The notes under the pieces are model-generated. The model was given only the letters and a program-made list of their open reading frames with translations. It ran no database searches and had not been told where the DNA came from. A DNA stretch of 64,000 nucleotides, taken from positions 186,001 to 250,000 of the forward strand of contig NZ_RCWJ01000003.1 of NCBI RefSeq assembly GCF_003668565.1, written 5' to 3'. The stretch comes from Mycetocola zhadangensis (GTDB lineage: Bacteria > Actinomycetota > Actinomycetes > Actinomycetales > Microbacteriaceae). The position numbers and the translations under genes were made by a program. Shown in pieces: positions 49,741 to 64,000 of the stretch. Every line of letters starts with the position of its first letter. Positions within the stretch are counted from its first letter, which is position 1.

Positions 49741-51498
49741 TTAATCCCGACGGCCACATTGCACATCACCCCATTTGGGGTGCGTGATGCTCACACCAGG
49801 GGTGGCAGCGACCGTGTCGACGGCGGCCGCCGCGAAGTCGACGGTGACAGTGATCGACTCCCCCGGCGACACCTGGGTGAAGATCGTCGCAACGGTGCGG
49901 TCGGCGTCGTCGGTGCCGATGGTGGCGAGCTTGTCATCTCCGCGCGTCGCAGAGAGCACCGAGGCGCCGACGGGAAGCACAACAACCACCTGGGTGCGAG
50001 TGTCGCCTGCGACCACACCGAAGATTCCGTATCCGGTGACGTACGCAGGGAGGCTTGTCCCGGCATCCGTCGGCGCAGCGCTCGTCAGCGTAACCGTCGC
50101 ACGGTGCGTCGCCCCTGTTGACGCTGGCGCGCAGTCGACCGTCGCGTCGGCCGACAGGTAGTAGCCCATCTTGGCCCCGGTGGCGTCGTTGAGGTAGACG
50201 CCGACGAAGTCCTTCTCGTCGTCGGGAAGAGAACCGGCGAGCGTGGTCTCGGCGAGCACCGCCTGCTCGGCATCGTCGGCGCTCCAGAGCAGGATCCGGC
50301 CCTGCGATGCCCCATCCACCAGCGCGGAGACGAGGGCACGCGGGTCGACGCTGTCTGAGGTCACCGCCGCGAACACCGCCTCGGTGGCCGCCGCAAAGAA
50401 TGCGTCCTGGGCCACCGGATCAGGGAAGTCGCGGTACACATCGCTGAGGAGCACCTGCACGGCGTTCGACTCATCGAGCACACGCTCGGGTGTCACAGAC
50501 ACCGGTCCCGTCGCAGTGAGCACCCGCTGGAGAACGTACGGGTCGATCGCGAATACCCCGTCGAAGGTCCGTCCGTAGACTGGCTCAGCCATCGCCAACG
50601 CGAGTTCGGCCGAGCGGGCAAAGTCGGGCGTGAGGTTGACGTCCATGAGGTACCGCCCGAGCTTGTCGCCGTAGAGATTCGCCTCCGCCGGCGTCACCGG
50701 CAGCACCGGTTCGGCGAGCACCGGAAAGTCGGTTGTCGACTTCTGATCTGTGACGCTGATGTGCCCAGCGGATGCCGTCAGTACGGCGGTCGCACCAACC
50801 AGACCTCCCGAGGCGCGCAGTTCAGCACTGTTCTGCACGAGCAGCAGGTAGTTTCGGGGCTCTCCCCCGCCGAGCATGGCCGGGAGGAGGGTTGCGGCGC
50901 GGTCGAGCGACTCGACAGTGTCAGCCGTGGACTCGACGAGTCCGGTGAGCTCCGTCACAGCGTCACGAATGAACGGCAGCGTCGCTGCGGAGTCGATAGC
51001 CCTCACCCGCTCGCGCGCCGGAATCGCGGCATCGCGGGCCTTAGAGAGAACGGGAGCAGCCGCGGCGAGGGGCGCCAGGTCAACCGAGGCCCCGGCCATC
51101 GCCGAGAGATCGAGGCTCTGCACGATCGGTATCAGCGGCGCGGCCACATCGACGGCCAGAATGTCCACCGCTGCAGCACTGTGCCCGACGGCCACGAGGT
51201 TCGGCCCGACGAACGGCACGAGTTCGGCCGCGCGCCAGACCGGGTCAGAGGTGAGCTCGACGGCACGGTTCGTGTGACCGGTCAGTGTGGCGCTCGACGC
51301 CGTGGCGGCATCCGTTTCTCCCGTCATCAACTGGTCTCTGAGCGTGTACGCCACCGTCTTCGCCGACCGGAGCTCGCCGGCGGCTGCGGCGCCACGCAAA
51401 CCGACCCAGAGTGCAGCGGCGAGCACAAGGATCCCTAAGGCGAGGGCAATCCAGAGCAGGGTGGTGCGCACGGGGGCGCGGGATGTGCGATCGGTCAT
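49741..51498 (-). CDS. DUF4012 domain membrane protein
   Basis: 585 aa. N-terminal membrane helix ('LLWIALALGILVLAAALWVGL'-type), then a large extracytoplasmic DUF4012 region with 'NYLLLVQNSAELRASGGLVGATAVL' and 'YLMDVNLTPDFARSAELALAMAEPVYG'. The family is often found near capsule or wall polysaccharide genes in actinobacteria; a LytR-CpsA-Psr-like relation is known for parts of it. Start ATG 51498 after GAGGAATC. Confidence 0.82.
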   Translation of the reverse strand: MTDRTSRAPVRTTLLWIALALGILVLAAALWVGLRGAAAAGELRSAKTVAYTLRDQLMTGETDAATASSATLTGHTNRAVELTSDPVWRAAELVPFVGPNLVAVGHSAAAVDILAVDVAAPLIPIVQSLDLSAMAGASVDLAPLAAAAPVLSKARDAAIPARERVRAIDSAATLPFIRDAVTELTGLVESTADTVESLDRAATLLPAMLGGGEPRNYLLLVQNSAELRASGGLVGATAVLTASAGHISVTDQKSTTDFPVLAEPVLPVTPAEANLYGDKLGRYLMDVNLTPDFARSAELALAMAEPVYGRTFDGVFAIDPYVLQRVLTATGPVSVTPERVLDESNAVQVLLSDVYRDFPDPVAQDAFFAAATEAVFAAVTSDSVDPRALVSALVDGASQGRILLWSADDAEQAVLAETTLAGSLPDDEKDFVGVYLNDATGAKMGYYLSADATVDCAPASTGATHRATVTLTSAAPTDAGTSLPAYVTGYGIFGVVAGDTRTQVVVVLPVGASVLSATRGDDKLATIGTDDADRTVATIFTQVSPGESITVTVDFAAAAVDTVAATPGVSITHPKWGDVQCGRRD

Positions 51499-51630
51499 GA
51501 TTCCTCGTCGGCTGGGCAAAACCACCCCATTTTGGTGATTCCCGAGCTAACATGACGAAAGCTCATGTAAAGCTTAGGTCGCCGTTTCGGAGTGCGCCTG
51601 CGCCTAAACGGGGGTCACTGGGAGGACGCC

Positions 51631-52107
51631 ATGGTCACATCACGCCACCGTCGCATCGCGGCGTGGGCCCTCGTGCTCGGCGGCATTGCCGTGTTCGCGG
51701 TCGCCTTCTGGCCCACCCCCATCGACGCCGGGTTCGCGGATGCGCTGCGCGGCTGGCTGACGGAATTGCAGACCTCTGGCGGGCCGGAGCTTCTCCGCTA
51801 TGGCGTCGTCGAGTTCGCCGCGAACATCGCCCTGTTCGTGCCGGTGGGCTTCGTGCTGGCCGTGTTGCTCCCACCGAGGCGACGGTGGCTGTCACCCCTG
51901 CTCTGCTTCCTGCTCTCGCTGGGAATCGAGTTCGGGCAGGTCGTGCTGGCCTCGAGTCGGCTCGGCGACGTGACCGACCTGATCGGCAATACCCTCGGAG
52001 GGCTGATCGGCACAGTGCTGCTCACTCTGCTCCTGGCCATCTCGCGGAGACGGGCCGCTCGGCGGGCCCGCACAGCGCCCGCAGTGTCGGCTCTCGGCGC
52101 GAGATAA
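51631..52107 (+). CDS. VanZ-like family membrane protein
   Basis: 158 aa, four membrane helices with 'VEFAANIALFVPVGFVLAVLLP' and 'LLSLGIEFGQVVLASSRLGDVTDLIGNTLGGLIG', the VanZ hallmark segments. Start at 51631 after GGAGG. Divergent from DUF4012. Function of such proteins is not settled; some affect glycopeptide resistance. Confidence 0.85.
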   Translation: MVTSRHRRIAAWALVLGGIAVFAVAFWPTPIDAGFADALRGWLTELQTSGGPELLRYGVVEFAANIALFVPVGFVLAVLLPPRRRWLSPLLCFLLSLGIEFGQVVLASSRLGDVTDLIGNTLGGLIGTVLLTLLLAISRRRAARRARTAPAVSALGAR

Positions 52108-52116
52108 GGAAGACCG

Positions 52117-52159
52117 GCCGAGATAAGGACAAACCCGCCTCGGGCGTCCTTATCTCAGC
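52117..52159. terminator. AGATAAGGA-type hairpin, copy 2
   Basis: GGCCGAGATAAGGAC (52116-52130) pairs with GTCCTTATCTCAGCC (52146-52160) with one mismatch. It lies between convergent VanZ and the HNH gene and reaches into the end of the latter. A third half-copy, GCGAGATAAGGA, is at 52099-52110. Related to 43345-43393. Confidence 0.78.
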
Positions 52160-52979
52160 CTGTTGTCCTTGAGCGCGGCGCCAGCGTCGACCCATACGCT
52201 GGCTGCGCGGGGCACGACGCCAGAACGCGCTCCATGGCCGACCGCTCCGGCGCCGTCACCCACAGCCCGTACGCCGCTTTGACCGAAATCTGGCGCGCCA
52301 GATACTCGCAGCGGTAACCGGTCGCCTGCGGCAGCCAGGTGGCGGCGTCGCCCGCCTGCTTGCGTGCGTTGGAGGAGGCATCCGTCGCCTGAAGATTGAG
52401 CGGATCGTTCGCGAGCGACTCCCGCTGCGCCTGGGAAAGCTGCTGCGCTCCGGTCTCCCACGCGTTCATGAGGGCGACGACGTGGTCGACCTGCACCTGG
52501 GTCGAGGTGTCCTGCCCGCGGGTGAACGCCACGTCGACGCCGCCGTAAACGTTGTCGAGCCACCCGGTCATCACCTTGCACTTGCCCTCAAGGGTCTCGT
52601 CGGTGAGGTCACGGGCGAGGATGTCGTTTCGGGTGTCGCAGCCGTTGTGGTCAACGTCGAGCCAGGCCCGCCCGAAATGCCCGGTGCGGTCATACCCGGT
52701 CTTCGGCGCGCGTCCCTTCGTCGGCAGCGCGGCGAGCGCGTCGGTCGCTGTTCCAACTATCGGGGCGGATGCCACGGGGCTGGGTGCACCGCCCTCACCC
52801 GCGCTCGGCTCGGAAAGCGGCGTGCTGGCCGGTGTTGCGGACGGTACCGGCGAGGCGGCCGGCGGAGTGCCGCCGTCGTCCTGGGGCCACAGCATCGAGA
52901 CGGCCAGTGTGACCAGGGCGACGAGCGCGAGCAGCGCTCCGCCCAGAGTGGACGCTCGGGGCGTCGTGCGTTGCCCCAT
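52155..52979 (-). CDS. Secreted HNH (GmrSD/DUF1524-type) endonuclease
   Basis: 274 aa. Membrane-anchored or secreted: an N-terminal hydrophobic segment ('ALLALVALVTLAVSMLW'), then a low-complexity Pro/Ser/Ala linker (about 35-75), then the nuclease domain with 'VDHVVALMNAWETGAQQLSQAQRESLANDPLNLQATDASSNARKQ' (D-H...N...N of HNH fold) and conserved Cys residues. Probably degrades external DNA or RNA for nutrition, or in competition. Confidence 0.85.
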   Translation of the reverse strand: MGQRTTPRASTLGGALLALVALVTLAVSMLWPQDDGGTPPAASPVPSATPASTPLSEPSAGEGGAPSPVASAPIVGTATDALAALPTKGRAPKTGYDRTGHFGRAWLDVDHNGCDTRNDILARDLTDETLEGKCKVMTGWLDNVYGGVDVAFTRGQDTSTQVQVDHVVALMNAWETGAQQLSQAQRESLANDPLNLQATDASSNARKQAGDAATWLPQATGYRCEYLARQISVKAAYGLWVTAPERSAMERVLASCPAQPAYGSTLAPRSRTTG

Positions 52980-53035
52980 GTGGCGACTCCAGTTCGTAGT
53001 GCTTCGAGCCTAACCGGAGCACCAGACACCGGGCG

Positions 53036-53887
53036 TCACCCGTGCGTTCGAATAAAGTCGAGCGCGAGCTCAGCCACTCCACGCCAACCGTGGTCGATGG
53101 TCAGCGAATGCCCGCGGTTCGGCACCTCGACGATCTCTGTGAGGCCTGGATTGTGCTCCTGCTGCTTGAACGCGGCCTGCGAGATTGCCCAAGGGACGAC
53201 GTGGTCGCGCTGCCCGGAGATGATGAGCAGCGGCCCGCGGTCGGGATTTCGTGTGTCGACGGTGACCTGGCTGAACGGGTTGAGGTTGGCGGCGGCCGCC
53301 TCGAAGATCGGTACCCCCGCTGCGGCAACGTGGAACTCGTCGAACAGGGCTCTGCCCTCGGCCTCGTCGAGCGCGTTGGCCCAGCCGTACCGGTACTGCT
53401 CGTAGGTGAGCGACACGGCTCGCCCGCGGTTCGCCGGGTTGCCGAGCACGGGGAAAGCCGCCTTGAGCGACGACAGTGGCAACGGGAGCACCCCGCGGAA
53501 CGGGGCTGGAGCGACCGCAACGGTGACGGCGGACTCTCCGGTCCCCGCGAGCGACTGCGCGATCAGCCCGCCGAAGGAGTGGCCGATGACCGCTGGCCGT
53601 TTGGTCAGGTGGCCGAGCACGTCCAGGAAGTGGTCGGTGACCTGGTGCACCATCTTGCGCGCGAACACGGCGGGGTCCTGGCGGGCGGCTTCAACGGTGT
53701 CGGGGTCGTCAGGCCACACCGGCGCGAGGGTCGAGTAGCCCGCCTCCTCGAACAGGGTCCGCCAGCGCTCCCAGCTCGACGACAGCAGCCACAGCCCGTG
53801 CACGAACACCACGGGGGTACGGCCTGACTCGTTGGCGCGCGTGATGTCCGAGAGTTCGGTGTCGGTGAGAAAACTCCGGGTGACCAT
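53036..53887 (-). CDS. Alpha/beta-hydrolase
   Basis: 283 aa. 'VVFVHGLWLLSSSWERW', nucleophile Ser in 'AVIGHSFGGLIAQSLAG', Asp in 'GQRDHVVPWA' and His in 'NRGHSLTIDHGWR'. Serine hydrolase; substrate unknown. ATG with GGAG upstream. Confidence 0.88.
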   Translation of the reverse strand: MVTRSFLTDTELSDITRANESGRTPVVFVHGLWLLSSSWERWRTLFEEAGYSTLAPVWPDDPDTVEAARQDPAVFARKMVHQVTDHFLDVLGHLTKRPAVIGHSFGGLIAQSLAGTGESAVTVAVAPAPFRGVLPLPLSSLKAAFPVLGNPANRGRAVSLTYEQYRYGWANALDEAEGRALFDEFHVAAAGVPIFEAAAANLNPFSQVTVDTRNPDRGPLLIISGQRDHVVPWAISQAAFKQQEHNPGLTEIVEVPNRGHSLTIDHGWRGVAELALDFIRTHG

Positions 53888-53956
53888 GGCGTGCTCCGTT
53901 CCTGAACAGCGGCGCTGAGTGCGACGATATTCCTTACAGACGGATGTCGTCTAGTG

Positions 53957-54090
53957 CGAAATCACGCAGGTCGCGTGATCACGCGGCCCGGAGCATCCGC
54001 TGGCCTTCGTCCGTTTCACGAAACAGCACGTCGCGTTACCGCGCGACCGACAGCATCCGCTCGCTCTCGACCGATTCACGAAACACCCCG
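53957..54090 (+). repeat. Imperfect 60-bp tandem repeat, 2.2 copies
   Basis: The DNA repeats at a 60-bp period: blocks ending at 54021 and 54081 share GCATCCGCT and TTCACGAAACA; a third partial block follows. The first copy contains the perfect 14-bp palindrome CGCGTGATCACGCG (53972-53985), degenerate in the second. It lies upstream of the EamA gene. A frame is open through it, but the EamA start after it has better support. Confidence 0.7.
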
Positions 54091-54112
54091 CGTGCGCCCT
54101 ACGCTCGATCTC

Positions 54113-55015
54113 ATGACAGCGATCGCGCCGAGCCCAGCATCGCGCGCGCCTGTGACCGCGGTCGGCCTGGTGCTGGTCGGCCTGCTGTGCCAGGAGTTCG
54201 GGGCGTCGTTCGCTGTGCTGTTGTTTCCCACTGTCGGGCCGCTCGGCATGGTGGCGCTGCGGCTGGCGTTCTCGGCGATTCTGCTGATGGCCATTGCCCG
54301 GCCGCGGCTGCGCGGATACTCCCGGGGTGACTGGCTCACCCTGTGTGGCTTCGCGATTGCACTCGCCGGCATGAACGCGCTGTTCTACGAGGCGCTCGCG
54401 CGCCTGCCGCTCGGGCCGACGGTGACGATCGAGGTGCTCGGGCCGCTCATCCTCTCGGTGGTGGTGAGCCGGCGCGCCTCGAGCTGGTTGTGGGCGCTGC
54501 TCGCGTTCGTCGGTGTTGTGCTGCTCGGCTGGGGTGGAGTGGACACGCTCGACCCGGTCGGTGTGTTGTTCGCGGCCGGCGCGGGTGCGGGATGGGTGGC
54601 GTACATTTTGCTCTCAGCACGAACGGGAGCGCGGTTTCCGAAGCTCGACGGCCTCGCGATCGCCATGACGATCGGCGCGGCGATCACTCTGCCGTTCGGA
54701 ATCGCCGATGCAGGTGCAGCCCTGTTCTCCCCCGGTATTCTGGCGCTTGGCGCGGCCGTTGCCGTGCTGTCATCGGCGATCCCGTACGCGCTCGAACTGT
54801 TCGCGCTCCGGCGGCTGCCTGCGTCCGCCTTCTCGATCCTCATGAGCCTCGCGCCAGCCATGGCTGCGATCGTCGGTGCGATCGTGCTGCACCAGCAGCT
54901 GACACTGCTCGGCTGGGTTGCCATCGCGCTCGTTGTGGTGGCGAGCGCTGGCGCTGTGCACTCGGCGAGCGCTCGCGCTCGGCGGCGGGTCGGAGTAGGC
55001 GAACCTCTCGCCTGA
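54113..55015 (+). CDS. EamA/RhaT family transporter
   Basis: 300 aa with ten predicted membrane helices in two EamA repeats ('GLVLVGLLCQEFGASFAVLLFPTVGPLGMVALRLAFSAILLM' and 'AAVAVLSSAIPYALELFALRRLPASAFSILMSLAPAMAAIVGAIVLHQQL'). RhtA-like exporters of amino acids or metabolites belong here. Substrate unknown. No good ribosome binding site is visible for the ATG at 54113. Confidence 0.85.
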   Translation: MTAIAPSPASRAPVTAVGLVLVGLLCQEFGASFAVLLFPTVGPLGMVALRLAFSAILLMAIARPRLRGYSRGDWLTLCGFAIALAGMNALFYEALARLPLGPTVTIEVLGPLILSVVVSRRASSWLWALLAFVGVVLLGWGGVDTLDPVGVLFAAGAGAGWVAYILLSARTGARFPKLDGLAIAMTIGAAITLPFGIADAGAALFSPGILALGAAVAVLSSAIPYALELFALRRLPASAFSILMSLAPAMAAIVGAIVLHQQLTLLGWVAIALVVVASAGAVHSASARARRRVGVGEPLA

Positions 55016-55036
55016 GGGGTCGATGCCCGTACTCCG

Positions 55037-55600
55037 CTACCGCTTCACTTTGTAGTGGAGGTAGACCACCCCGGAGTCGAAGGTACGCGTCTCCACCAGT
55101 TCGAGGTTTGACCGGCGCTCATCGTGAGCAAAGTACGGCACCCCACCTCCGACCAGGACGGGCAGCACCCGGATGAGGTACTCATCGATGAGGCCCAACC
55201 CCGCGGCTTCGGCGGCGAGCGTTGCACCACCGATTCCGATGTTGCCTTCCCCCGGCTCCGCGCGCAGGCGTTCGATTTCCTCGGCGAGCCCTCCAGAGGC
55301 GAGACGCGCATTGCCGCGCACCTCCGACAGCGTGGTGGAGAAGACGACCTTGGGGAGCCGATTCCAAATCGTCGCAAACTCACGCTCCAACGCGGTGACG
55401 GACGCATCCTCCTCGGCGCCGTCCCAATAGAGCATCGATTCATACAGTCGCCGGCCGAGCAGGTGGATTCCGAGCGCGCGCACCTCGTCGGTGGCGAGTT
55501 GGAACACCTCTTCGTCCGGCGCAGCCCAATCGAACTGTCCGTCCGGCCCGATCACGTAGCCATCGAGTGACATGGTCAGGGAATAGGTCACGTTTCGCAT
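55037..55600 (-). CDS. Dihydrofolate reductase-like (RibD C-terminal) family protein
   Basis: 187 aa. 'NVTYSLTMSLDGYVIGPDGQFDW', 'LLGRRLYESMLYWDG', 'KVVFSTTLSEV', 'NIGIGGATLAAEAAGLGLIDEYLIRVLPVLVGGGVPYF'. YyaP/YwjB-like reductases; probably NADPH-dependent, true substrate unknown. ATG at 55600 after GGAGG. Confidence 0.88.
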   Translation of the reverse strand: MRNVTYSLTMSLDGYVIGPDGQFDWAAPDEEVFQLATDEVRALGIHLLGRRLYESMLYWDGAEEDASVTALEREFATIWNRLPKVVFSTTLSEVRGNARLASGGLAEEIERLRAEPGEGNIGIGGATLAAEAAGLGLIDEYLIRVLPVLVGGGVPYFAHDERRSNLELVETRTFDSGVVYLHYKVKR

Positions 55601-55730
55601 CTGGAACCTCCACGTTTGTGGCTGCCATCGTATGACTTCCCGTTCACCGCCTTCCAGCGATTCTCGTATCTCGGCTGGCAACTCGCCCGGCGAGATCGCC
55701 GCCCCGTGCTGGCGATGACAGAATGACAGA

Positions 55731-56096
55731 GTGACGTCCAACTACCCCGAGCTCGATGGCTACGAGCCCAGCGACGGTCGCCCACTTCCTTCGCAACGCC
55801 TGCTCAAGCCGATGCGGTTCCTGGTCATCATCGGGGTGATCGCCCTCGTCCTTCCGGGCATCCTCGTCACCATCTCAACCGCGACCCACACCGCGGACGT
55901 AAGTTGCTCGCTCGTTGTCGAGCGGGACGCGCCGTACGCCATCGGTTCGAGCGCTCGGTTCGAGCTAGTCGGGCCCGAGGGCCCTTCCTGGTATTGCTAC
56001 GCCGAGATCCGCGACGAGCCGGACCTCCTGCTCGCGGCACTTGGCCCCATTCCGGGCGCTCCGCCACCACCTCAGCCCGGACTCGTGCGCAGCTAA
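55731..56096 (+). CDS. Small membrane-anchored hypothetical protein
   Basis: 121 aa from the GTG at 55731. A short polar N-terminus, one membrane helix ('MRFLVIIGVIALVLPGILVTI'-type, about 28-48), and an extracytoplasmic part with two Cys and a Pro-rich end 'IPGAPPPPQPG'. No family recognised. Confidence 0.5.
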   Translation: MTSNYPELDGYEPSDGRPLPSQRLLKPMRFLVIIGVIALVLPGILVTISTATHTADVSCSLVVERDAPYAIGSSARFELVGPEGPSWYCYAEIRDEPDLLLAALGPIPGAPPPPQPGLVRS

Positions 56097-56231
56097 GCGA
56101 CAGCGAACCGATACCGCCAGATCGAAAAACCGCAAGCCCTCCCCGGATGTCGGGGACTTGAACCCGCAGCCGCTAACGTTGGAGACGATGCGAAGGCTGT
56201 CGCCTCGCCACGCACAGACAGGGATTACTAA

Positions 56232-56510
56232 GTGATTGTTCACAGGCTGACCGTTGACGGACGCGACTACTTCCTCCCAGACCCGGTGACCGAACTGCGG
56301 GGACAGATCCTCGAAGCGATCAAAGCCGGCGGAGGGTATGTAACGATCCCACCGCTGCGCGGCGGACCGGGTCTCGACATTCTCTTCTCGCCGGGTATGC
56401 CGGTTTCCTGGAGCCAGATCGACGTTGGTGGAGACAGCACCGAGGCTGGCGCTGCTGACGCGGGAGACCACGCTGTCGCCATGGAAGACGACTCCTTCAG
56501 CGGACTCTAA
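56232..56510 (+). CDS. Small hypothetical protein
   Basis: 92 aa from the GTG at 56232. 'VHRLTVDGRDYFLPDPVTELRGQILEAIKAGGGYVTIPPLRGG' and 'LDILFSPGMPVSWSQIDV', then an acidic Ala/Glu tail. The core looks like a small beta-alpha-beta domain. It resembles short uncharacterised proteins I associate with Microbacteriaceae, but I cannot name a family. Confidence 0.6.
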   Translation: MIVHRLTVDGRDYFLPDPVTELRGQILEAIKAGGGYVTIPPLRGGPGLDILFSPGMPVSWSQIDVGGDSTEAGAADAGDHAVAMEDDSFSGL

Positions 56511-56540
56511 GAACCTCGCCCGTTCCTGACGGGAACGTAC

Positions 56541-57293
56541 TCAGTACATTTCCGTCAGGAACCCATCCAGTTCGTCTACGGGCAGCGGCTTGCCAAACAG
56601 GTAGCCCTGCGCGCGATCGCAGTGGATCCGTTGCACCAGATCGAGTTGCTCGGCCGTCTCTACGCCTTCGGCGACCACACGCACGCCTCGCTCCTGCAGC
56701 AGTGCGACGGCCACGGCGATTAACGCGCCGTTGCTCTTGGTCTCCTGAATGAGCGACTTGTCGATTTTGAGCTCGGTGATCGGCAGGTCTCGGAGTTGCG
56801 CCAGCGACGAATGACCGGTGCCGAAGTCGTCGAGGGAGACGCCGAGGCCGATGGCGCGAAGCCGCTCCAGGCGCTGGGCCACCCCGGCAACGTCAGAGAT
56901 AACCTCAGACTCGGTGATCTCAATGGTCAGTGTGCCGGCCGGGAGGTTATATTCCCCGAGAAGGTTGTAGAGCCGGTCGAACACCTCCGGCGTCGCCAAC
57001 TGCAGGGCCGATACGTTCACCGAAACGTGGATCGCAAGACCGTCGCGGCGCCACCGAGCCGCGTGACGGCATCCCTCCTCAAGCATGTACGCACCGATTT
57101 CATGAATCAGGCCCGTTCGTTCAGCGACGGGGATGAAGTCGGCGGGTGGAATCAGGCCTTTCGTCGGGTGGCGCCACCGAGCGAGAGCCTCCACCGCTGT
57201 GATCTTGCCGGTCGTCACGTCGATCTGAGGCTGGAAGTACGCCTCAATCTCTTTTCGTTCGACCGCGCCGACCAGGTCTTCCTCGACACTCAT
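56541..57293 (-). CDS. EAL-domain cyclic-di-GMP phosphodiesterase
   Basis: 250 aa, a stand-alone EAL domain. Seen: 'EAYFQPQIDVTTGKITAVEALARWRHPTKGLIPPADFIPVAE' (EAL motif), 'HVSVNVSALQL', 'LTIEITESEV', 'SLDDFGTGHSSLAQLRDLPITELKIDKSLI' and 'VAEGVETAEQLD': all metal- and base-catalysis residues appear intact, so it should hydrolyse c-di-GMP. The start at 57293 follows GGGAG; upstream in-frame starts exist. It is divergent from the RsbQ/GGDEF operon. Confidence 0.9.
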   Translation of the reverse strand: MSVEEDLVGAVERKEIEAYFQPQIDVTTGKITAVEALARWRHPTKGLIPPADFIPVAERTGLIHEIGAYMLEEGCRHAARWRRDGLAIHVSVNVSALQLATPEVFDRLYNLLGEYNLPAGTLTIEITESEVISDVAGVAQRLERLRAIGLGVSLDDFGTGHSSLAQLRDLPITELKIDKSLIQETKSNGALIAVAVALLQERGVRVVAEGVETAEQLDLVQRIHCDRAQGYLFGKPLPVDELDGFLTEMY

Positions 57294-57423
57294 TTCGCGC
57301 TCCCGCAGCTGACCGACCACATCGTTCGGACAGCAATCGAGGTTGAACGCGAAATAAGCATGATTCATCGTGCATGCTGCATACACGAAAAATCTACGCT
57401 CCCACCCGGGGGGTGAGTGTGCG

Positions 57424-57429
57424 TATAAT
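57424..57429 (+). promoter_or_regulatory. Possible -10 element in the EAL/RsbQ divergent region
   Basis: TATAAT stands out in this G/C-rich DNA about 155 nt before the hydrolase GTG. No clear -35 is visible, and a CACCC/GGGTG hairpin lies just upstream. The leader would be long, so the assignment is weak. Confidence 0.3.
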
Positions 57430-57584
57430 TTCCGCCCGCCGTTCGGCGCCTGCGAATTTCCGTCGGATTACTCCTCTTGCTTTGCTCCGAAACGCGCGCT
57501 CCACTACGATTTTCTGAGCCGACATCGCGCGGCACCGACGAGTGGTTTCTCGGATTTTCGTCAGGGTTATCAGCAGGAGCCGCA

Positions 57585-58397
57585 GTGAGTACAGATCAGT
57601 TGAGTCATGTCCGCGCCAGGAACAATGTGACGGTGTCAGGCAACCCCTCTGGACGGCCAATTGTTTTCGCGCACGGATTCGGGTGCAGTTCGGAGATGTG
57701 GCACGCTGTCGCCCCTCGATTCGAGGACGAGCATTGTGTTGTGCGATTCGATCACGTCGGGGCTGGCCGAAGCGACCTGAGTGCCTACGACAAGGGTAAA
57801 TACGACTCTCTCCACGGCTACGCGGACGATGTGCTCGAGATCCTCGATGACCTCGACCTTACCGATGCGGTTTTCGTCGGGCACTCGGTGAGCGCGATGA
57901 TCGGGGTGCTCGCGGCAACGAAGAATCCGGCCAGGTTCGGGGCGCTCATCCTCGTTGGCCCATCGCCCCGTTACATCAACGCCGACGGGTACGTTGGCGG
58001 CTTCGAACGGGCCGACATTGACGCGCTCCTGGACTCGCTCGACGCGAACTACCTCGGCTGGTCCGCCTCAATGGCACCACTCATCATGGGGAACAGCTCC
58101 CAGCCCGAACTCGGCGAGATGTTGACCGAGAGCTTCTGCAGTATCGACCCCACCATTGCTCGGCACTTCGCCCGCGTTACTTTCCTCTCGGACAACCGTC
58201 ACGACCTCCCCCTGGTCACGACTCCGACGCTCGTGTTGCAGTCCCAGCAAGACATCATCGCTCCCCTCGAAGTTGGACAGTTCGTGCACGAGTCGATCCC
58301 GGGCAGCGTCCTGGTTGTGCTCGACGCCACAGGGCATTGTCCGAACCTCTCGGCGCCTGACGAGCTCACCGCCGAGATCCAGGCGTTCCTCCGGTGA
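57585..58397 (+). CDS. RsbQ/KAI2-like alpha/beta-hydrolase
   Basis: 270 aa, essentially the length of Bacillus RsbQ (269). Seen: 'FAHGFGCSSEMWHAVAPRF', 'VVRFDHVGAGRSDLSAYDKGKYDSLHGYADDVLEILDDL', Ser101 in 'VGHSVSAMIG', 'LILVGPSPRYIN', Asp223 in 'LQSQQDIIAP' and His251 in 'DATGHCPNL'. RsbQ binds or hydrolyses a small hydrophobic ligand and activates the PAS-domain phosphatase RsbP. Here the GTGA-coupled partner is a PAS-GAF-GGDEF protein instead. GTG start with GGAG. Confidence 0.88.
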   Translation: MSTDQLSHVRARNNVTVSGNPSGRPIVFAHGFGCSSEMWHAVAPRFEDEHCVVRFDHVGAGRSDLSAYDKGKYDSLHGYADDVLEILDDLDLTDAVFVGHSVSAMIGVLAATKNPARFGALILVGPSPRYINADGYVGGFERADIDALLDSLDANYLGWSASMAPLIMGNSSQPELGEMLTESFCSIDPTIARHFARVTFLSDNRHDLPLVTTPTLVLQSQQDIIAPLEVGQFVHESIPGSVLVVLDATGHCPNLSAPDELTAEIQAFLR

Positions 58398-59830
58398 CCG
58401 ACCCGGCCGGTGTCGGTCCTGCAGAGCCCTCCCCTGCGCAACCAGGCAGCGACTTCGAGGACCTTTACGAGAATGCTCCGTGTGGCTATCTGGTGACGTC
58501 GGCCGACGGCAGGATCACGTCGGTGAACACCACCTTCACCCGAATGATCGGCCACCCGCCTCACGAACTGCTCGGGCGCAATTTCCAGGCGTTGCTCACC
58601 GTTGGAAGCCAGCTGTTCCACGAAACCCGGTACGTGCCGACGCTCCGGCTGCGAGGACGAGTCGACGAGATCGTGCTGTCCTTGCAGTGCGCAGACGGAA
58701 CCAACCTGCACACCATGATCAACGCCATCCAGAACGGCGTGTCAGGTGAGGTGCGTCTCGCCGTCTTCGACTCCACTGCACGTCGCGACTACGAACGCGA
58801 GCTTCTTGAGGCTCGGCGCGCGGCCGAAACGTCAGAGGCGCAGGTCCGGATCCTGCAGCAGGCGTCGACCGCATTCACCCTCGCAGACACGGAGAGTGCC
58901 CTCACGGCGGCTCTCGCGGAAAACGTACGCGAGGCATTCTCGTCCAGTTTCACGGCAATCCTGCTCTTCGACGAAGCCGGGGTGCTTCAGCTCGCAACCG
59001 GGTCGCATCCGCTTCTCGAATATATTCACGCCGGGTGGGACACTCCGTCCACTGACGCCGTTCGCCTCAACCAGGTTGTCATCGTCCCCAACCTCGACGA
59101 AGCCCAGAAGATGTACCCGCACCTGGTCCCGGTCTATCACGCCAACCAGCTGCAGACCGCGATCGCCTCACCGCTCACCGACAAGGGCAAACCGGTCGGA
59201 GTAATCTCGTCGTTCTTTCGGCGGGAGCGCAACTTTGACCCGGAACTTCTCGAACTGCTCGGCACCCTGACCCAGCAGGCGTCGCACGTGCTCGCGCGCA
59301 TCCGGCTGCAGGGGCAGCTCGCTCGCATGGCACTGCACGACCAGCTCACCGGGCTGGCGAACCGCCAGTTGCTTCAGGTGCGACTGAACCAGGCGATCGC
59401 CGCGGCCGAACGCAGCGGGCGGCCACTCGCCGTTGTGTTTCTCGACCTCGACGGCTTCAAAGTTGTCAACGACAACTGCGGGCACGCCATCGGCGATTCG
59501 GTGCTGAGCCAGGTGGCCGACCGTCTGCGCACATCGGTGCGCGCGGCCGACACCATCGGGCGATACGGCGGTGACGAGTTCGTTGTCATTTGTGAAGACA
59601 CCGACGCGGATGCCGTCAGTCACGTCACCGACCGGATCCTCGCGTCGGTCCGAGAACCGCTTGAGGGCGTGCCGGACGAGTACCCGGTCTCAGCGTCGAT
59701 CGGAGTCGCGTTGCTGGTGCCGGACGCCGGGTCCGCTGTCACGACAGACGGCATCCTCGGGCTCGCCGACGCTGCGATGTACCAGTCGAAGAATGCCGGC
59801 AAGGACCGGGTCACCGTCGTCGTCGTTTAG
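58394..59830 (+). CDS. PAS-GAF-GGDEF diguanylate cyclase coupled to RsbQ-like hydrolase
   Basis: 478 aa. PAS domain (about 21-115: 'LYENAPCGYLVTSADGRITSVNTTFTRMIG', 'SQLFHETRYVPTLRLRGRVDEIVLSL'), the type found in RsbP-like proteins; a short helical linker (about 125-150); GAF domain (about 150-305); GGDEF domain (about 313-478) with intact GGDEF at 392-396 and an RxxD inhibitory site (383-386) five residues before it. It should make c-di-GMP under product inhibition. No membrane segment. The GTG start overlaps the hydrolase stop by 4 nt. Confidence 0.9.
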   Translation: MTDPAGVGPAEPSPAQPGSDFEDLYENAPCGYLVTSADGRITSVNTTFTRMIGHPPHELLGRNFQALLTVGSQLFHETRYVPTLRLRGRVDEIVLSLQCADGTNLHTMINAIQNGVSGEVRLAVFDSTARRDYERELLEARRAAETSEAQVRILQQASTAFTLADTESALTAALAENVREAFSSSFTAILLFDEAGVLQLATGSHPLLEYIHAGWDTPSTDAVRLNQVVIVPNLDEAQKMYPHLVPVYHANQLQTAIASPLTDKGKPVGVISSFFRRERNFDPELLELLGTLTQQASHVLARIRLQGQLARMALHDQLTGLANRQLLQVRLNQAIAAAERSGRPLAVVFLDLDGFKVVNDNCGHAIGDSVLSQVADRLRTSVRAADTIGRYGGDEFVVICEDTDADAVSHVTDRILASVREPLEGVPDEYPVSASIGVALLVPDAGSAVTTDGILGLADAAMYQSKNAGKDRVTVVVV

Positions 59831-59959
59831 GCCTTGCCTGACAAGTCACCGGCGAACCGTATTGTGGTGCGGAAAACGGGTGAGCGCTCCCATAGAATCA
59901 AGAAGTCCGTTCGGCCATCTGCCGAGGGGGCTTTTCAATGCATGACGGAGGTTTGCCCG

Positions 59960-60289
59960 GTGGGAACGCTCACTTACGACTCAAAAGTGACAGCATCGAT
60001 CGACGATCGGATTCTTGCTCACCTCCAGATCGTGATGATGGCGAAGCTGCGGCGCGGCGAATCGTTCGCGTTCACCTGGAGTGAGAAGGCAAACGGCCTC
60101 GGTCGAACCACCATCTGGATTCACTCGGCGATCTCGTTGACCTTCCAGTACTACGGCGGCAAGAGCCCGCTCATCAACTCGGCCTGGGTGCAGGCCCTCG
60201 TGCGATCGTCGAACTCCGTGTCCGGGCTCGAGATTGTGCCTGAGCCGCCGGCCAGTTCCGCGCGGCCAGCGCCCGATCCCGCAGTCTAG
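59960..60289 (+). CDS. DUF7882-type small protein
   Basis: 109 aa. 'GTLTYDSKVTASIDDRILAHLQIVMMAKLRRGESFAFTW' and 'RTTIWIHSAISLTFQYYGGKSPLINSAWVQALVRSSNSVSGLEIVPEP' match a protein family widespread in Microbacteriaceae, sometimes mislabelled as DNA ligase. Function unknown. GTG at 59960 after GGAGG. Useful as a lineage marker. Confidence 0.8.
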   Translation: MGTLTYDSKVTASIDDRILAHLQIVMMAKLRRGESFAFTWSEKANGLGRTTIWIHSAISLTFQYYGGKSPLINSAWVQALVRSSNSVSGLEIVPEPPASSARPAPDPAV

Positions 60290-60364
60290 CTTCGGTCGTT
60301 TCTCGCGCTGCCTGGGTCGTTCGCGTCGGCCGGGCGGAGTTCCGCATCGCGCCCCAGCGTTCGT

Positions 60365-60413
60365 GTGACACTTTTGGTGGGTGCCAGCGCCGGCGACCCA
60401 CAACAACTGTCAC
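60365..60413. repeat. GTGACA...GTGGGT palindrome, copy 1
   Basis: GTGACA (60365-60370) and GTGGGT (60377-60382) are mirrored by ACCCAC (60396-60401) and TGTCAC (60408-60413). A second copy lies 83 bp on, both between convergent genes. Confidence 0.75.
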
Positions 60414-60447
60414 CTGAGCCGAAGTGCCCGTTTGGGCCGCCGGATTC

Positions 60448-60500
60448 GAGTGACACTTGTGGTGGGTTGGCGTGCCTGCAACCCACAACTACTGTCACTC
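60448..60500. repeat. GTGACA...GTGGGT palindrome, copy 2
   Basis: GAGTGACA (60448-60455) and GTGGGT (60462-60467) are mirrored by ACCCAC (60481-60486) and TGTCACTC (60493-60500). Arms longer and better paired than copy 1. Possible REP-like element or terminator. Confidence 0.8.
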
Positions 60501-60582
60501 GAAGCGCTGCCAGCCTGCAAACACAACGGACACGACGCCCGACGAGCGCAATGCGAATGCGATGAGCCATCGGGGTAGACGC

Positions 60583-61569
60583 TCAGCGGTGGGAGGACAC
60601 CCTTGGGTCGCGAACGACGTCGGGCAGCTCTGGCACCGGGACGATCACGATATCCTGCACCTTCCAGTCCAGGTCGACGCACGCCTCCCGAGCCTCATCG
60701 AGCTGGGTGACGGTGATTTCCCGCGGATGACGGGGCACCACAAAAGCCTCGATGTGAAAAACGTGACCCTGATCGCGTACGCGGGAACCGGCATCCGCTA
60801 TCCAATCCAGTGAGCGCAGGTAGTCATCGACCTGGTCGACGATCGGGTGCGGTTTCGCGTCGTCGAAGGTCATGGCGCGCATGTCCATGAGGTCTTCGAT
60901 CGCCGCCCGGATGTTCTTCACTCCGTCCCAGAGGATGCTTCCGGCGATGAACAGCGCCGCAGCGGAGTCAGCCCACCACAGCCCGAGGCCGATCCCGCCG
61001 ACTCCGACGATGGAGCCGACGGCGGTCATCCAGTCGGCCTTGTTCATGTCGGCGTCGGCATAGAGCACCTTGTCGTGCAGTTCGCGGGCGAGCTTCATCT
61101 TGGCGCGACCGATGAACACCGGCGGCAGCGCGATGAGTGCCATCACACCCATCATCAGCCAACCGAGCCAGAACACCTGGCCGAACAGTTCGACCGAACC
61201 GATGCTCGGGTGCTCGGCGGCGAGCAGCCCGGACGCCGAGTCGACGATGAGGAAACTGCCCATCGTCACGAGCGCGACCGCAGCGACGAGGTGCCCGACG
61301 CCGACCGAGCGGTGATAACCGTACGGATGCTTCACCGTTGGTTTGCGCCGGGCAACACGAACCGCAACCAGGAACACGATCGGCGGGATGAACGACAGCA
61401 GGTCCTCGATCCAGGCAGCCTTCATGGCCTGCGAGTTGCCGAGCACGAGAAACACCAGCGTGACGCTGACGGCCAGGAAGGCGATGGTGATCCACTCGAG
61501 CCGGATCGCTTTTTTGAGGATCTCCGCCTGCTTCGCGGGAAGCGCGGTGTGACCGAAGCTGATCGTCAT
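60583..61569 (-). CDS. Cation diffusion facilitator family transporter
   Basis: 328 aa, six membrane helices and a C-terminal cytoplasmic domain. Seen: 'AWIEDLLSFIPPIVFLVAVRVARRKP' (TM2 with acidic metal-site residues), 'HPYGYHRSVGVGHLVAAVALV', 'ADADMNKADWMTAVGSIVGV' (TM5). Exports divalent metal ions with proton exchange. It is ATGA-coupled downstream of a binding-protein-like lipoprotein. Confidence 0.88.
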   Translation of the reverse strand: MTISFGHTALPAKQAEILKKAIRLEWITIAFLAVSVTLVFLVLGNSQAMKAAWIEDLLSFIPPIVFLVAVRVARRKPTVKHPYGYHRSVGVGHLVAAVALVTMGSFLIVDSASGLLAAEHPSIGSVELFGQVFWLGWLMMGVMALIALPPVFIGRAKMKLARELHDKVLYADADMNKADWMTAVGSIVGVGGIGLGLWWADSAAALFIAGSILWDGVKNIRAAIEDLMDMRAMTFDDAKPHPIVDQVDDYLRSLDWIADAGSRVRDQGHVFHIEAFVVPRHPREITVTQLDEAREACVDLDWKVQDIVIVPVPELPDVVRDPRVSSHR

Positions 61570-62048
61570 GGTGCGCTCTCCTGGCTTCCAAGGAACCTCT
61601 CCAACTCGACGAGGAACGCGTTCTCCCCCATCGCCGCGGCCATCACGTGCTTTCGAGTCGCGCCATCGTCGGTGGTCACCTGGTCGAACGGCTTGGTGAT
61701 CGCCGCCTTCTCCGACCAGGGCGTGGTGTCGGTGAGGCCGCCGATGACCATGTCGAGCCGCCCGGCCGCGAGGTCGGTGAAGAGCTTCTCCTCACCGCCC
61801 TCTGTCCACACCACTTCAGCGTCGATGGTGTCGGCGAACTCTTCCACGAGTGTGACTTCGATTCCGGATGCTTCGCCACCGTCGGTCATATCGGCCCAGT
61901 TTCCGTTTGGCGACAGTCCAACCCGCAGTGTTCCACCCGTGACTCGCTCGAGGGTGCCATCGGGGTCGGCGGGAAACTGCGACGCGCAGCCGGTGAGACT
62001 CAGCACCAGGCCGGCGGCGGCGAGCGCTCGGATCGCGGGAGTGTTCAT
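61566..62048 (-). CDS. Short periplasmic-binding-protein-like lipoprotein (one lobe)
   Basis: 160 aa. Lipobox 'LSLTGCASQ'. 'GGTLRVGLSPNGNWADMTDGGEASGIEVTLVEEFADTI', 'VWTEGGEEKLFTDLAAGRLDMVIGGLTDTTPWSEKAAITKPF' are lobe 1 of family 3 solute-binding proteins. The chain then jumps to 'KHVMAAAMGENAFLVELERFL', the usual C-terminal end, so lobe 2 is missing. Coupled to a CDF exporter. Perhaps an extracytoplasmic metal or metabolite sensor (inference). Confidence 0.8.
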   Translation of the reverse strand: MNTPAIRALAAAGLVLSLTGCASQFPADPDGTLERVTGGTLRVGLSPNGNWADMTDGGEASGIEVTLVEEFADTIDAEVVWTEGGEEKLFTDLAAGRLDMVIGGLTDTTPWSEKAAITKPFDQVTTDDGATRKHVMAAAMGENAFLVELERFLGSQESAP

Positions 62049-62230
62049 GCCCACACCATAACGAGAAGCACAGCCGCCGATCTGGAGCTTGACAGGCCGC
62101 GACAACTGTGGGGCGAACGGGCGATCATCCGCCCTGCGCTAGTGTCGAACGAGCACTGCCCCGAGCGTCTTTTCGGGACGCCCGAATCCGGGAAACCGCA
62201 ATGACCGAACGACTGAATGAGGACAAACCT

Positions 62231-62632
62231 GTGAAGATCCGCAAGCTGAGTGCCGTTGTTCTTGCCGGCCTGGTCGCGACGGTCCTTGTGGCATGCGGCG
62301 GAGGATCCGCGGTGGCATCCAAGACGGAGTCATCACTGAATGAGGTGCCGGGTGTGGTGTCCGCGAAAACCGAGTTCCGGAACAGCGCAGGCATGAGCTC
62401 GCGCATCAATGTGCGCATCATCGCGTCACCCGATGCCGACCTGTACACCGTGCTTGACGATTCGCTTCGCGCGTTTGCTGACGCGTCAGGAGACACAAAG
62501 GGCTCCATCTCCGTGTCATATTACGTGCACACCGAGGGAGCCGAAGAGACCGGCATCCGTCCCGATGCTGCCGGCCTGAAAACGACGCCGTCGGTGGACG
62601 ACATCCGCAACTACGCCGGTTACGGCGGCTAA
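62231..62632 (+). CDS. Small lipoprotein of unknown function
   Basis: 133 aa from the GTG at 62231 (GAGGA upstream; an ATG at 62201 is possible). Signal peptide 'KIRKLSAVVLAGLVATVLVACG', lipidated Cys, then about 110 residues with 'LNEVPGVVSAKTEFRNSAGMSSRINVRIIASPDADLYTVLDDSLRAFA', suggesting a small ferredoxin-like fold. No family recognised. Divergent from the binding-protein-like gene. Confidence 0.65.
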   Translation: MKIRKLSAVVLAGLVATVLVACGGGSAVASKTESSLNEVPGVVSAKTEFRNSAGMSSRINVRIIASPDADLYTVLDDSLRAFADASGDTKGSISVSYYVHTEGAEETGIRPDAAGLKTTPSVDDIRNYAGYGG

Positions 62633-62697
62633 ACCTCACGTGAGCGTCGCGCGAGTATGCCGCACTCGAGCGGCGTCTCGCCAAATATGACGAAACA

Positions 62698-62720
62698 AAT
62701 TCGGTGCCGAGAGCCGAATT
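62698..62720 (+). promoter_or_regulatory. Inverted repeat upstream of the oligopeptide-binding gene
   Basis: AATTCGG (62698-62704), 9-bp spacer, CCGAATT (62714-62720), about 140 bp before the ATG. Could be an operator or part of a terminator for the upstream lipoprotein gene. Confidence 0.35.
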
Positions 62721-62858
62721 CGTAACAGGCCACAACAGAACGTAACGCAAGCCAACATCACGTAACCGTGAGTTTGACGTCGCCTCGACCTTCGCCAGTC
62801 TTGGGCTACTCGATCGGAATTCATTTCGACCGCCGCCACCCATCCTGGAGAAGAACTC

Positions 62859-64000
62859 ATGCCTGTTACCCGCGGACGATCCACGCTCGGTCTCGCGCTC
62901 CTGATGAGCGCAACACTTCTCTCCGGATGCGCGTCCGGAAGTGCGGCCGAAAAGTCGAGCACCGGCGACCCCGTCGACGGCGGCACGCTCGCCCTCTCCA
63001 TCTCGACCGAGCCGGGGTGCCTCGACTCGCACTCGATCTCGGCCACGCAGCACCAGTTGCTCGGCCGCATCATCTACGACAACCTCGTCACGCTCGACGA
63101 GGACGGCAACATTGCGCCATACCTGGCGAAGAGCTGGGACATCTCGGAGGACGGCAAAACCTACACGTTCACGCTTGAGGAGGGGGTGACGTTCAGCGAT
63201 GGGTCGCCGTGGAACGCCGAGGTGCTCGGGCAGAACTTCGAGCACATGAGGGACCCGGCCACGAAGTCGCCGCTGGCCGCCGCCTACATCGCGCCGTACG
63301 TCGACGGCACAGTGATCGACGAGTACACCTTTGAGGCGCACCTCTCATACGCATACACTCCCTTCCTCTACAACCTCGCCCAGTCGTGGCTCGCCATGAC
63401 CTCGGGCAAGGCGATCACCGAATCACCAGAGACGCTGTGCCAGGCGCCGGTCGGATCCGGGCCGTTCGTCGTCGAGGACTACAAGGTCGGCCAGAGCATC
63501 AGCTACGTCAAGCGGGAGGGTTACAACTGGGGGCCGGATTGGCTCGGCTACGACGGCGAAGCGCACCTCGACGGCATTGAGATCACTGTTGTTCCTGAGG
63601 CCGTCATCCGGTACGAGACACTCGTCTCGGGCCAGTACGACATCACCGAGAATCTCCCGCCGCAGAACGCCGCAGCCATTGAAGCGAACGACGCGTTCGT
63701 TTACGAGAACCTCATTCGAGCTGGCAGCCCGTACGCGCTGAGCTTCAACCTGTCACGGGCACCGTTCGACGACATCCGGGTGCGTGAGGCCTTTGTCGCG
63801 GCCGTCGACCGGGACGCGGTGACAGACAGCGTCGGTTTCGGTACATACACGCCCAAGGACAACTTCCTCTCCTCCAAGACGCCGTACTACGACGAGACCA
63901 CAGAGGGCAAGCTCGACTACGATCCCGATCAGGCGAACGACCTGCTTGACGAGGCCGGCTGGACCGTAAAAGACAGTGACGGTTACCGCACGAAGGACGG
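62859..64000 (+). CDS. ABC transporter substrate-binding lipoprotein, family 5 (oligopeptide/nickel type), partial
   Basis: First 380 codons; runs off the right edge. Lipobox 'LLSGCASG', then 'PVDGGTLALSISTEPGCLDSHSISATQHQLLGRIIYDNLVTLDEDGNIAPYLAKSWDI' and 'TYTFTLEEGVTFSDGSPWNAEVLGQNF', 'CQAPVGSGPFVVEDYKVGQSISYVKREGYNWGP', typical of DppA/OppA-like proteins. ATG at 62859 follows GGAG. Permease genes would be expected just beyond the window. Confidence 0.9.
   Translation, partial: MPVTRGRSTLGLALLMSATLLSGCASGSAAEKSSTGDPVDGGTLALSISTEPGCLDSHSISATQHQLLGRIIYDNLVTLDEDGNIAPYLAKSWDISEDGKTYTFTLEEGVTFSDGSPWNAEVLGQNFEHMRDPATKSPLAAAYIAPYVDGTVIDEYTFEAHLSYAYTPFLYNLAQSWLAMTSGKAITESPETLCQAPVGSGPFVVEDYKVGQSISYVKREGYNWGPDWLGYDGEAHLDGIEITVVPEAVIRYETLVSGQYDITENLPPQNAAAIEANDAFVYENLIRAGSPYALSFNLSRAPFDDIRVREAFVAAVDRDAVTDSVGFGTYTPKDNFLSSKTPYYDETTEGKLDYDPDQANDLLDEAGWTVKDSDGYRTKD

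Follow-up and report, generated by a model that had tools for sequence, protein, structure and literature searches.

The locus described here lies in a stretch of 64,000 nucleotides (hereafter the window) of the Mycetocola zhadangensis contig NZ_RCWJ01000003.1 (assembly GCF_003668565.1; Microbacteriaceae), and comprises genes for an RsbQ-like alpha/beta hydrolase, a PAS-GAF-GGDEF protein, a stand-alone EAL protein, and two small proteins, hyp92 and DUF7882. The hydrolase (270 amino acids; plus strand, 57585..58397, from a GTG start at 57585 to a TGA stop at 58397) was recognized by Pfam, PDB search, and motif reading: it matches Abhydrolase_6 (E=2.8e-21) and has every member of the Ser-Asp-His triad (S101, D223, and H251). 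Its stop is joined through a GTGA overlap, read from the sequence, to the start of a 478-residue protein (58394..59830, plus strand). Pfam, alignment, and motifs place in this protein, on the same strand, an RsbP-type PAS domain (approximately residues 20-125, 58451..58768; E=4.3e-08), a GAF domain (residues 166-300, 58889..59293; GAF_2, E=2.2e-11), and, beyond the GAF, a GGDEF domain (residues 313-472, 59330..59809; E=4.3e-44). The GGDEF motif stands at residue 392, with R-A-A-D upstream in the I-site position (RxxD) and five residues between; the GG[DE]EF site, the metal Asp, and the substrate Asn/Asp, at the positions of a diguanylate cyclase site, are all present. Divergently oriented across an intergenic region of 198 bp (57387..57584) is the EAL gene (56541..57386, minus strand; start GTG 57386 or ATG 57368), a predicted phosphodiesterase of cyclic di-GMP (c-di-GMP) by its Pfam match (EAL, E=3.6e-72). 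In its product the catalytic residues of the domain (E, N, E, D, D, K, E, and Q) are all in place. The original prediction, made from the letters of the window, had given these three genes, their domains and pairing, the triad, the GTGA coupling, and the GGDEF and RxxD sites as found here; it underrated the EAL protein, which has the only EAL domain found in its genome, and it missed hyp92 and DUF7882.

The hydrolase is close to RsbQ of Bacillus subtilis (1wom), the first of 251 PDB sequence matches (E=5.4e-82), with 124 of 259 aligned residues identical (48%) and the triad in common. After RsbQ and 3qvm, the matches are KAI2/D14 proteins; the window hydrolase belongs to the family of these plant butenolide receptors, yet its partner differs, being a PAS-cyclase. 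The F-box partner and the repressor of KAI2/D14 are plant-specific. A bacterial precedent is described by Nadezhdin, Brody, and Price (2011; PMC3183031), who counted 45 genes of the RsbQ type, each upstream of a gene for an RsbP-type PAS protein. The outputs were phosphatase, histidine kinase, or diguanylate cyclase; the cyclases came from Gram-positive as well as Gram-negative bacteria, and three of them had a C-terminal phosphodiesterase domain. In B. subtilis, where the output is a PP2C phosphatase and not a GGDEF domain, RsbQ binds the RsbP PAS, and F55A breaks contact and signalling (PMC3183031). Given that a module with cyclase output was published in 2011, the pair in the window, with its hydrolase immediately upstream, N-terminal RsbP-type PAS, and GGDEF output, extends a known module by a new member, with a GAF inserted. 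RsbQ-type input to a cyclase, as the original prediction had it, is plausible and, having been proposed in 2011, not new in kind. Unlike the published module (PMC3183031), the window has the GAF between PAS and GGDEF, departs at two PAS positions considered below, and carries a stand-alone EAL, hyp92, and DUF7882 alongside; the available text of that paper mentions neither Leifsonia, Clavibacter, Mycetocola, nor GAF. The wider cluster, that is the EAL and its two small neighbours, may be what is new beyond the known sensor pairing; apart from the 2011 proposal, the literature searched, mostly by title, yielded no paper on control of c-di-GMP by an RsbQ-type protein.

With RsbP numbering transferred by motif and class residues taken from PMC3183031, the window PAS keeps C10, L13, L48, Q53, F55, P62, and E72, and so most residues of the class; six of nine class residues (C10, L13, L48, Q53, F55, C56, Y59, E72, and P86) have the B. 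subtilis letter, the differences under this transferred numbering being C56 to His, Y59 to Arg, and P86 to His. Position 59 seems to follow the output: Arg is the rule in the window's own class (34/38 GGDEF-class PAS domains), as opposed to His in 46/46 PP2C-class and 15/17 kinase-class domains (61/63 phosphatase- and kinase-type partners), possibly a signature of the output class, although confounded by descent. The DIT motif is absent from the end of the window PAS, where DST is read by eye; a charged conserved segment, RRDYERELLEARRAAE, follows, a possible counterpart of the class coiled-coil, and here the GAF intervenes. In the PDB, the best match of the window PAS has E=3.9e-05; the 13 chains matched are all of PAS type, and RsbP is not among them.

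The pair is kept across genera, as the original prediction required. Among the nearest hydrolase loci (the best 80 of 83, chosen by peptide patterns in named genomes), 78 have a PAS protein directly downstream, with 46 PP2C, 17 kinase, 10 GGDEF, and five short or other outputs, a distribution (46/17/10/5/2) that is not an unbiased census. Domain searches confirmed SpoIIE/PP2C in 46/46, HATPase_c in 17/17, and GGDEF in 11/11 with the window included. All 10 GGDEF loci are, by their record titles, from Microbacteriaceae. In 150 genomes of this family the hydrolase was found in 30, at 33 places, and at 31 of these a GGDEF protein lies directly downstream; with 78/80 nearest loci having a PAS and 31/33 family places a GGDEF, the pairing is not due to chance. 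Of the 11 family members aligned, window included, 10 have a GAF_2 match, and a GAF occurs in 9 of the 46 PP2C partners as well, presumably nine long Geodermatophilaceae proteins. The whole cyclase site and RxxD are retained by 34 of 38 GGDEF-class partners (the duplicates L083=L002, L089=L005, and L095=L012 were left out of this count, of the 40 family loci below, and of the 107 rows of the hydrolase tree). The exceptions are L012 and three fusions, L108, L110, and L111, where the hydrolase is followed by a PAS-GGDEF-EAL protein with degenerate GGDEF and intact EAL positions, so that the module may drive a phosphodiesterase there. L012 (Salinibacterium sedimenticola) has its degenerate GGDEF in a hydrolase-linked partner, no EAL, hyp92, or DUF7882 being found beside it, and its genome (G143) has another copy of the hydrolase, whose linked GGDEF is intact. 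In the hydrolase tree (quick method; 45 of its 104 inner branches are unresolved), output classes are clustered: a branch with 99% support in the approximate likelihood ratio test (SH-aLRT) sets PP2C, kinase, and the three GGDEF-EAL fusion rows against the main Microbacteriaceae cyclase rows, and four divergent cyclase rows (L105-L107 and L112) branch off separately.

The EAL gene is likewise a recurrent neighbour. It flanks 9 of the 10 GGDEF loci versus none of the 70 others (Fisher p=4e-11, not to be taken literally since the loci are related and Fisher and binomial values ignore relatedness). In the family survey, 16/33 places, in 16/30 hydrolase-bearing genomes, have a separate EAL no more than about 3.4 kb off (measured between midpoints), and in 14 of those 16 genomes it is the sole EAL found. 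Exactly one EAL was found in 18/30 hydrolase-bearing genomes, and at least one in 27/30 genomes with the hydrolase versus 41/120 without; PF13487, the sole HD-GYP family tried, matched none of the 30. Every EAL row that is complete and adjoins a separate-gene pair has the catalytic residues; the DDFG loop is replaced by DDVR, DDLG, or DDVW in L003, L004, L084, and L089, and by DDYG in L098 and in each of the two L103 copies.

Two further proteins accompany the EAL. The first, hyp92 (56232..56510, plus strand, convergent with the EAL gene), has 92 residues and belongs to no named family, with no Pfam match at E<=10 and no NCBIfam match at E<=1; PilY2 is weakly matched by 3 of 26 relatives (best E=0.024), and no solved structure was found for it. 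The second (59960..60289, plus strand, 109 residues) is a DUF7882 protein (PF25355; E=4.2e-35, 120 bits vs. a cut-off of 27), with three weak streptavidin matches (E 0.36 or worse) among solved structures. Compared with the 33 family loci, hyp92 recurs in 16 and DUF7882 in 18, while the other six of eight flanking genes recur in at most five. Across 40 nonredundant hydrolase loci in the family, hyp92 is present in 22/23 with a separate EAL versus 1/17 without, the single missing case (L104) standing at a contig end cut within the EAL, and DUF7882 in 22/23 versus 3/17. Both also follow the EAL away from the hydrolase: in 10 EAL stretches with no hydrolase in them, some from genomes that carry it elsewhere, hyp92 is present in seven (L117-L123) and DUF7882 in eight (L116-L123), L124 and L125 having neither. 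In stretches of family DNA centred on hydrolases or EALs, where alone the two were sought for this count, hyp92 occurs 28 times within 3 kb of an EAL (195 kb) versus once outside (443 kb), and DUF7882 32 times versus 10, five of the 10 coming after a cyclase just over 3 kb from the EAL. Since DUF7882 is also found away from c-di-GMP genes, it is denser around the EAL but not exclusive to it. Over 20 loci, mean pairwise identity is 70% for the hydrolase, 53 for GGDEF, 50-52 for DUF7882, and 48-49 for the EAL, and the PAS averages 53. The idea that hyp92 is the best conserved protein of the locus holds for its N-terminal 59-62 residues (81%), the full length (68%) being about level with the hydrolase. 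Homology between hyp92 and DUF7882 is unsupported by hhalign (probability 1.1). The Pfam entry for DUF7882 was contributed by the authors of PMC12227055, who propose CryoRhodopsin transducers as its members, with PF25355 represented in Microbacteriaceae too; the window member stands instead beside c-di-GMP enzymes, and 'c-di-GMP' occurs 0 times in the available text of that paper. No rhodopsin was noticed at the window locus, in work that included no search aimed at rhodopsins. In Microbacteriaceae plasmid records, 9 of the 17 best places for DUF7882 carry the annotation 'ATP-dependent DNA ligase'; no hyp92 was found on plasmids and no DUF7882 in phages.

Directly observed are the genes with their catalytic motifs and the GTGA overlap, together with the repeated association of the hydrolase and cyclase with EAL, hyp92, and DUF7882; from these sequences we infer the hydrolase-PAS contact, the sign of the control, the ligand, and the roles of the two small proteins. 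Overall, we find it rather probable that the Microbacteriaceae have here a compact locus for the control of c-di-GMP, in which a hydrolase-PAS input would set the cyclase and the EAL would remove its product. The RsbQ-like hydrolase would bind, and probably turn over, a small hydrophobic molecule and touch the N-terminal PAS of the cyclase; the PAS would relay the change via a helical linker and the GAF to a dimeric GGDEF domain, which would make c-di-GMP under the limit of its RxxD site, and the divergently transcribed EAL enzyme would degrade it, with hyp92 and DUF7882 acting with the EAL or reading c-di-GMP. For these two, a role as EAL partners or c-di-GMP read-out seems most likely. The input step is suggested by the B. 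subtilis experiments (PMC3183031) together with conservation. The cue of RsbQ was called mysterious in 2011 (PMC3183031) and the natural ligand of plant KAI2 is still called undiscovered (PMC10504578). In four of 30 hydrolase-bearing genomes (G021, G039, G103, and G076) the hydrolase locus contains the sole GGDEF and the sole EAL found, and in G068, G107, and G040 the locus GGDEF is the only one found; counts of one are weaker in G039 (83% complete) and in G113 (77%). Genomes with a single RsbQ-controlled cyclase and a single EAL would offer a clean read-out, the c-di-GMP level reporting the state of the hydrolase. The locus also connects two uncharacterised protein families with the enzymes of c-di-GMP, in a group, the Microbacteriaceae, on which we found little c-di-GMP literature.

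Several observations weigh against this proposal. In B. subtilis RsbP, Y59 to Ala is null and P86 to Ala is weak (PMC3183031), and the window PAS has Arg and His at these positions; P86, lost here, is kept in 27/38 GGDEF-class rows. Given these departures, hydrolase contact cannot be taken for granted. No biochemistry of a GGDEF-output member was found in the literature searched. An EAL partner, whether separate or fused, is missing from 14 of the 40 nonredundant loci; in one of these, L112, a GGDEF-EAL gene lies at a distance of 5.5 kb. In the EAL tree (39 rows, quick method), the window EAL groups with those of its own genus and the pair-linked separate EALs do not form one clade, interleaving with unlinked stand-alone EALs, with at least three changes of linkage forced by starred branches; linkage to the pair, as read from this tree, has thus come or gone more than once. 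Finally, the locus is not the only likely source of c-di-GMP in its own genome, which encodes, besides this cyclase and the one EAL, a PAS_2-GAF-PHY-GGDEF phytochrome with the GGDEF motif (L114:3884-6280, contig C2) and two degenerate GGDEF-like proteins in tandem. The phytochrome gene adjoins, by eye, a carotenoid-desaturase-like flavoprotein. The tandem (L113:7331-9659) consists of two overlapping genes for what by eye are membrane proteins, and weak pairs resembling it occur in G002 and G149.

An alternative, possible and compatible with the proposed control locus since the two overlap, although we would not favour it, is that PAS, GAF, or both do the actual sensing, for instance through heme or another cofactor in the PAS, and that the hydrolase only prepares or delivers a ligand, as in Model 1 of Nadezhdin et al. 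(2011); c-di-GMP would then follow redox, gas, or a metabolite. The His at position 56 of the window PAS matches the heme-binding His of EcDos/FixL (PMC3183031), and the GAF is an additional sensor candidate. His 56 is found in 7/38 GGDEF-class domains, window included, and in 36/46 of the PP2C class; on the other hand, C56A has little effect in B. subtilis (PMC3183031), 28/38 GGDEF-class domains have Tyr or Phe there, and these sequence data hold no sign of heme binding.

Somewhat more doubtful is the notion that EAL, hyp92, and DUF7882 are a unit of their own, with the RsbQ-cyclase pair as one of several inputs beside it and functionally uncoupled from it. The trio does adjoin a PAS_2-GAF-PHY-GGDEF phytochrome protein in L117, L121, and L122, and stands with no GGDEF detected in the stretch in L118-L120 and L123; the 14 loci lacking an EAL and the scattered linked EALs of the tree also fit this notion. 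Nonetheless, where the sole GGDEF and sole EAL lie together, as in the four genomes named above, the two would share one c-di-GMP pool. A bolder and, in our view, unlikely extension makes the locus a compact cassette in which the cyclase input can be exchanged (RsbQ-PAS-GAF-GGDEF or phytochrome-GGDEF); along with a single EAL, it would include hyp92, with its strikingly conserved first 60 residues, as a new type of c-di-GMP receptor or effector and DUF7882 as the adaptor of hyp92, in place of PilZ, a domain found in 1/30 hydrolase-bearing genomes and not in that of the window.

Alpha/beta hydrolases are abundant and varied, and this one could be a metabolic esterase merely co-transcribed with a cyclase regulated otherwise, in keeping with the two deviating, functionally important PAS positions and with L116, where the EAL stands beside a GAF-GGDEF protein homologous to window cyclase residues 145-475 (two DUF7882 genes lie about 5 kb off) and no hydrolase was found in the 11-kb stretch; this is very improbable, however, since pairing with an RsbP-type PAS in 78/80 loci, across phyla and with three output types, would hardly follow from a metabolic role, the sequence of 8/10 named family loci plus the window permits an ATGA or GTGA overlap, and L116 has no recognisable PAS either, as expected if both were lost together.

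Turning to the regulatory and genomic setting, no sigma-70-type promoter was found in the 198-bp gap, and in an alignment with four relatives little is conserved apart from a block resembling TGTGCGTATAAT and the stretch ahead of the start codon; no Rfam riboswitch or other RNA was found over 50000-64000 at gathering cut-offs. No match to a SpoIIE-type phosphatase was found in the window's genome or in three genomes of its genus. Elsewhere among the hydrolase loci, a PAS partner was not detected at L109, L074, and L076, and L087 ends at a contig end after its PAS region. At L074:4914-6404 a hydrolase relative has a C-terminal extension of about 200 residues that has no Pfam match, and an AAA ATPase follows it. 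Short PAS-type partners (205-221 residues), two with a weak HisKA match, occur in the Sphingobacteriaceae loci L063, L064, L069, and L072.

MshEN domains were found in 25/30 hydrolase-bearing genomes and in 59/120 family genomes without the hydrolase. The first motif of c-di-GMP-binding MshEN starts with RLG (PMC5013675), a start missing from seven PilB-type MshEN proteins read by eye (one from the window's genome and one from each of six others), and PilB is for this reason not claimed here as a receptor. The window's own PilB, with its MshEN lacking RLG, lies among type IV pilus genes recognized by eye (L115:5308-9919, contig C1). Past the DUF7882 gene, at 60365-60503, the window contains two copies, spaced by 85 bp, of an inverted repeat, GTGACACTTKTGGTGGGT ... 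ACCCACAACWACTGTCAC; its half-site has 20 matches in the genome at <=2 mismatches versus none for the reversed control, and it looks like a small dispersed palindromic element.

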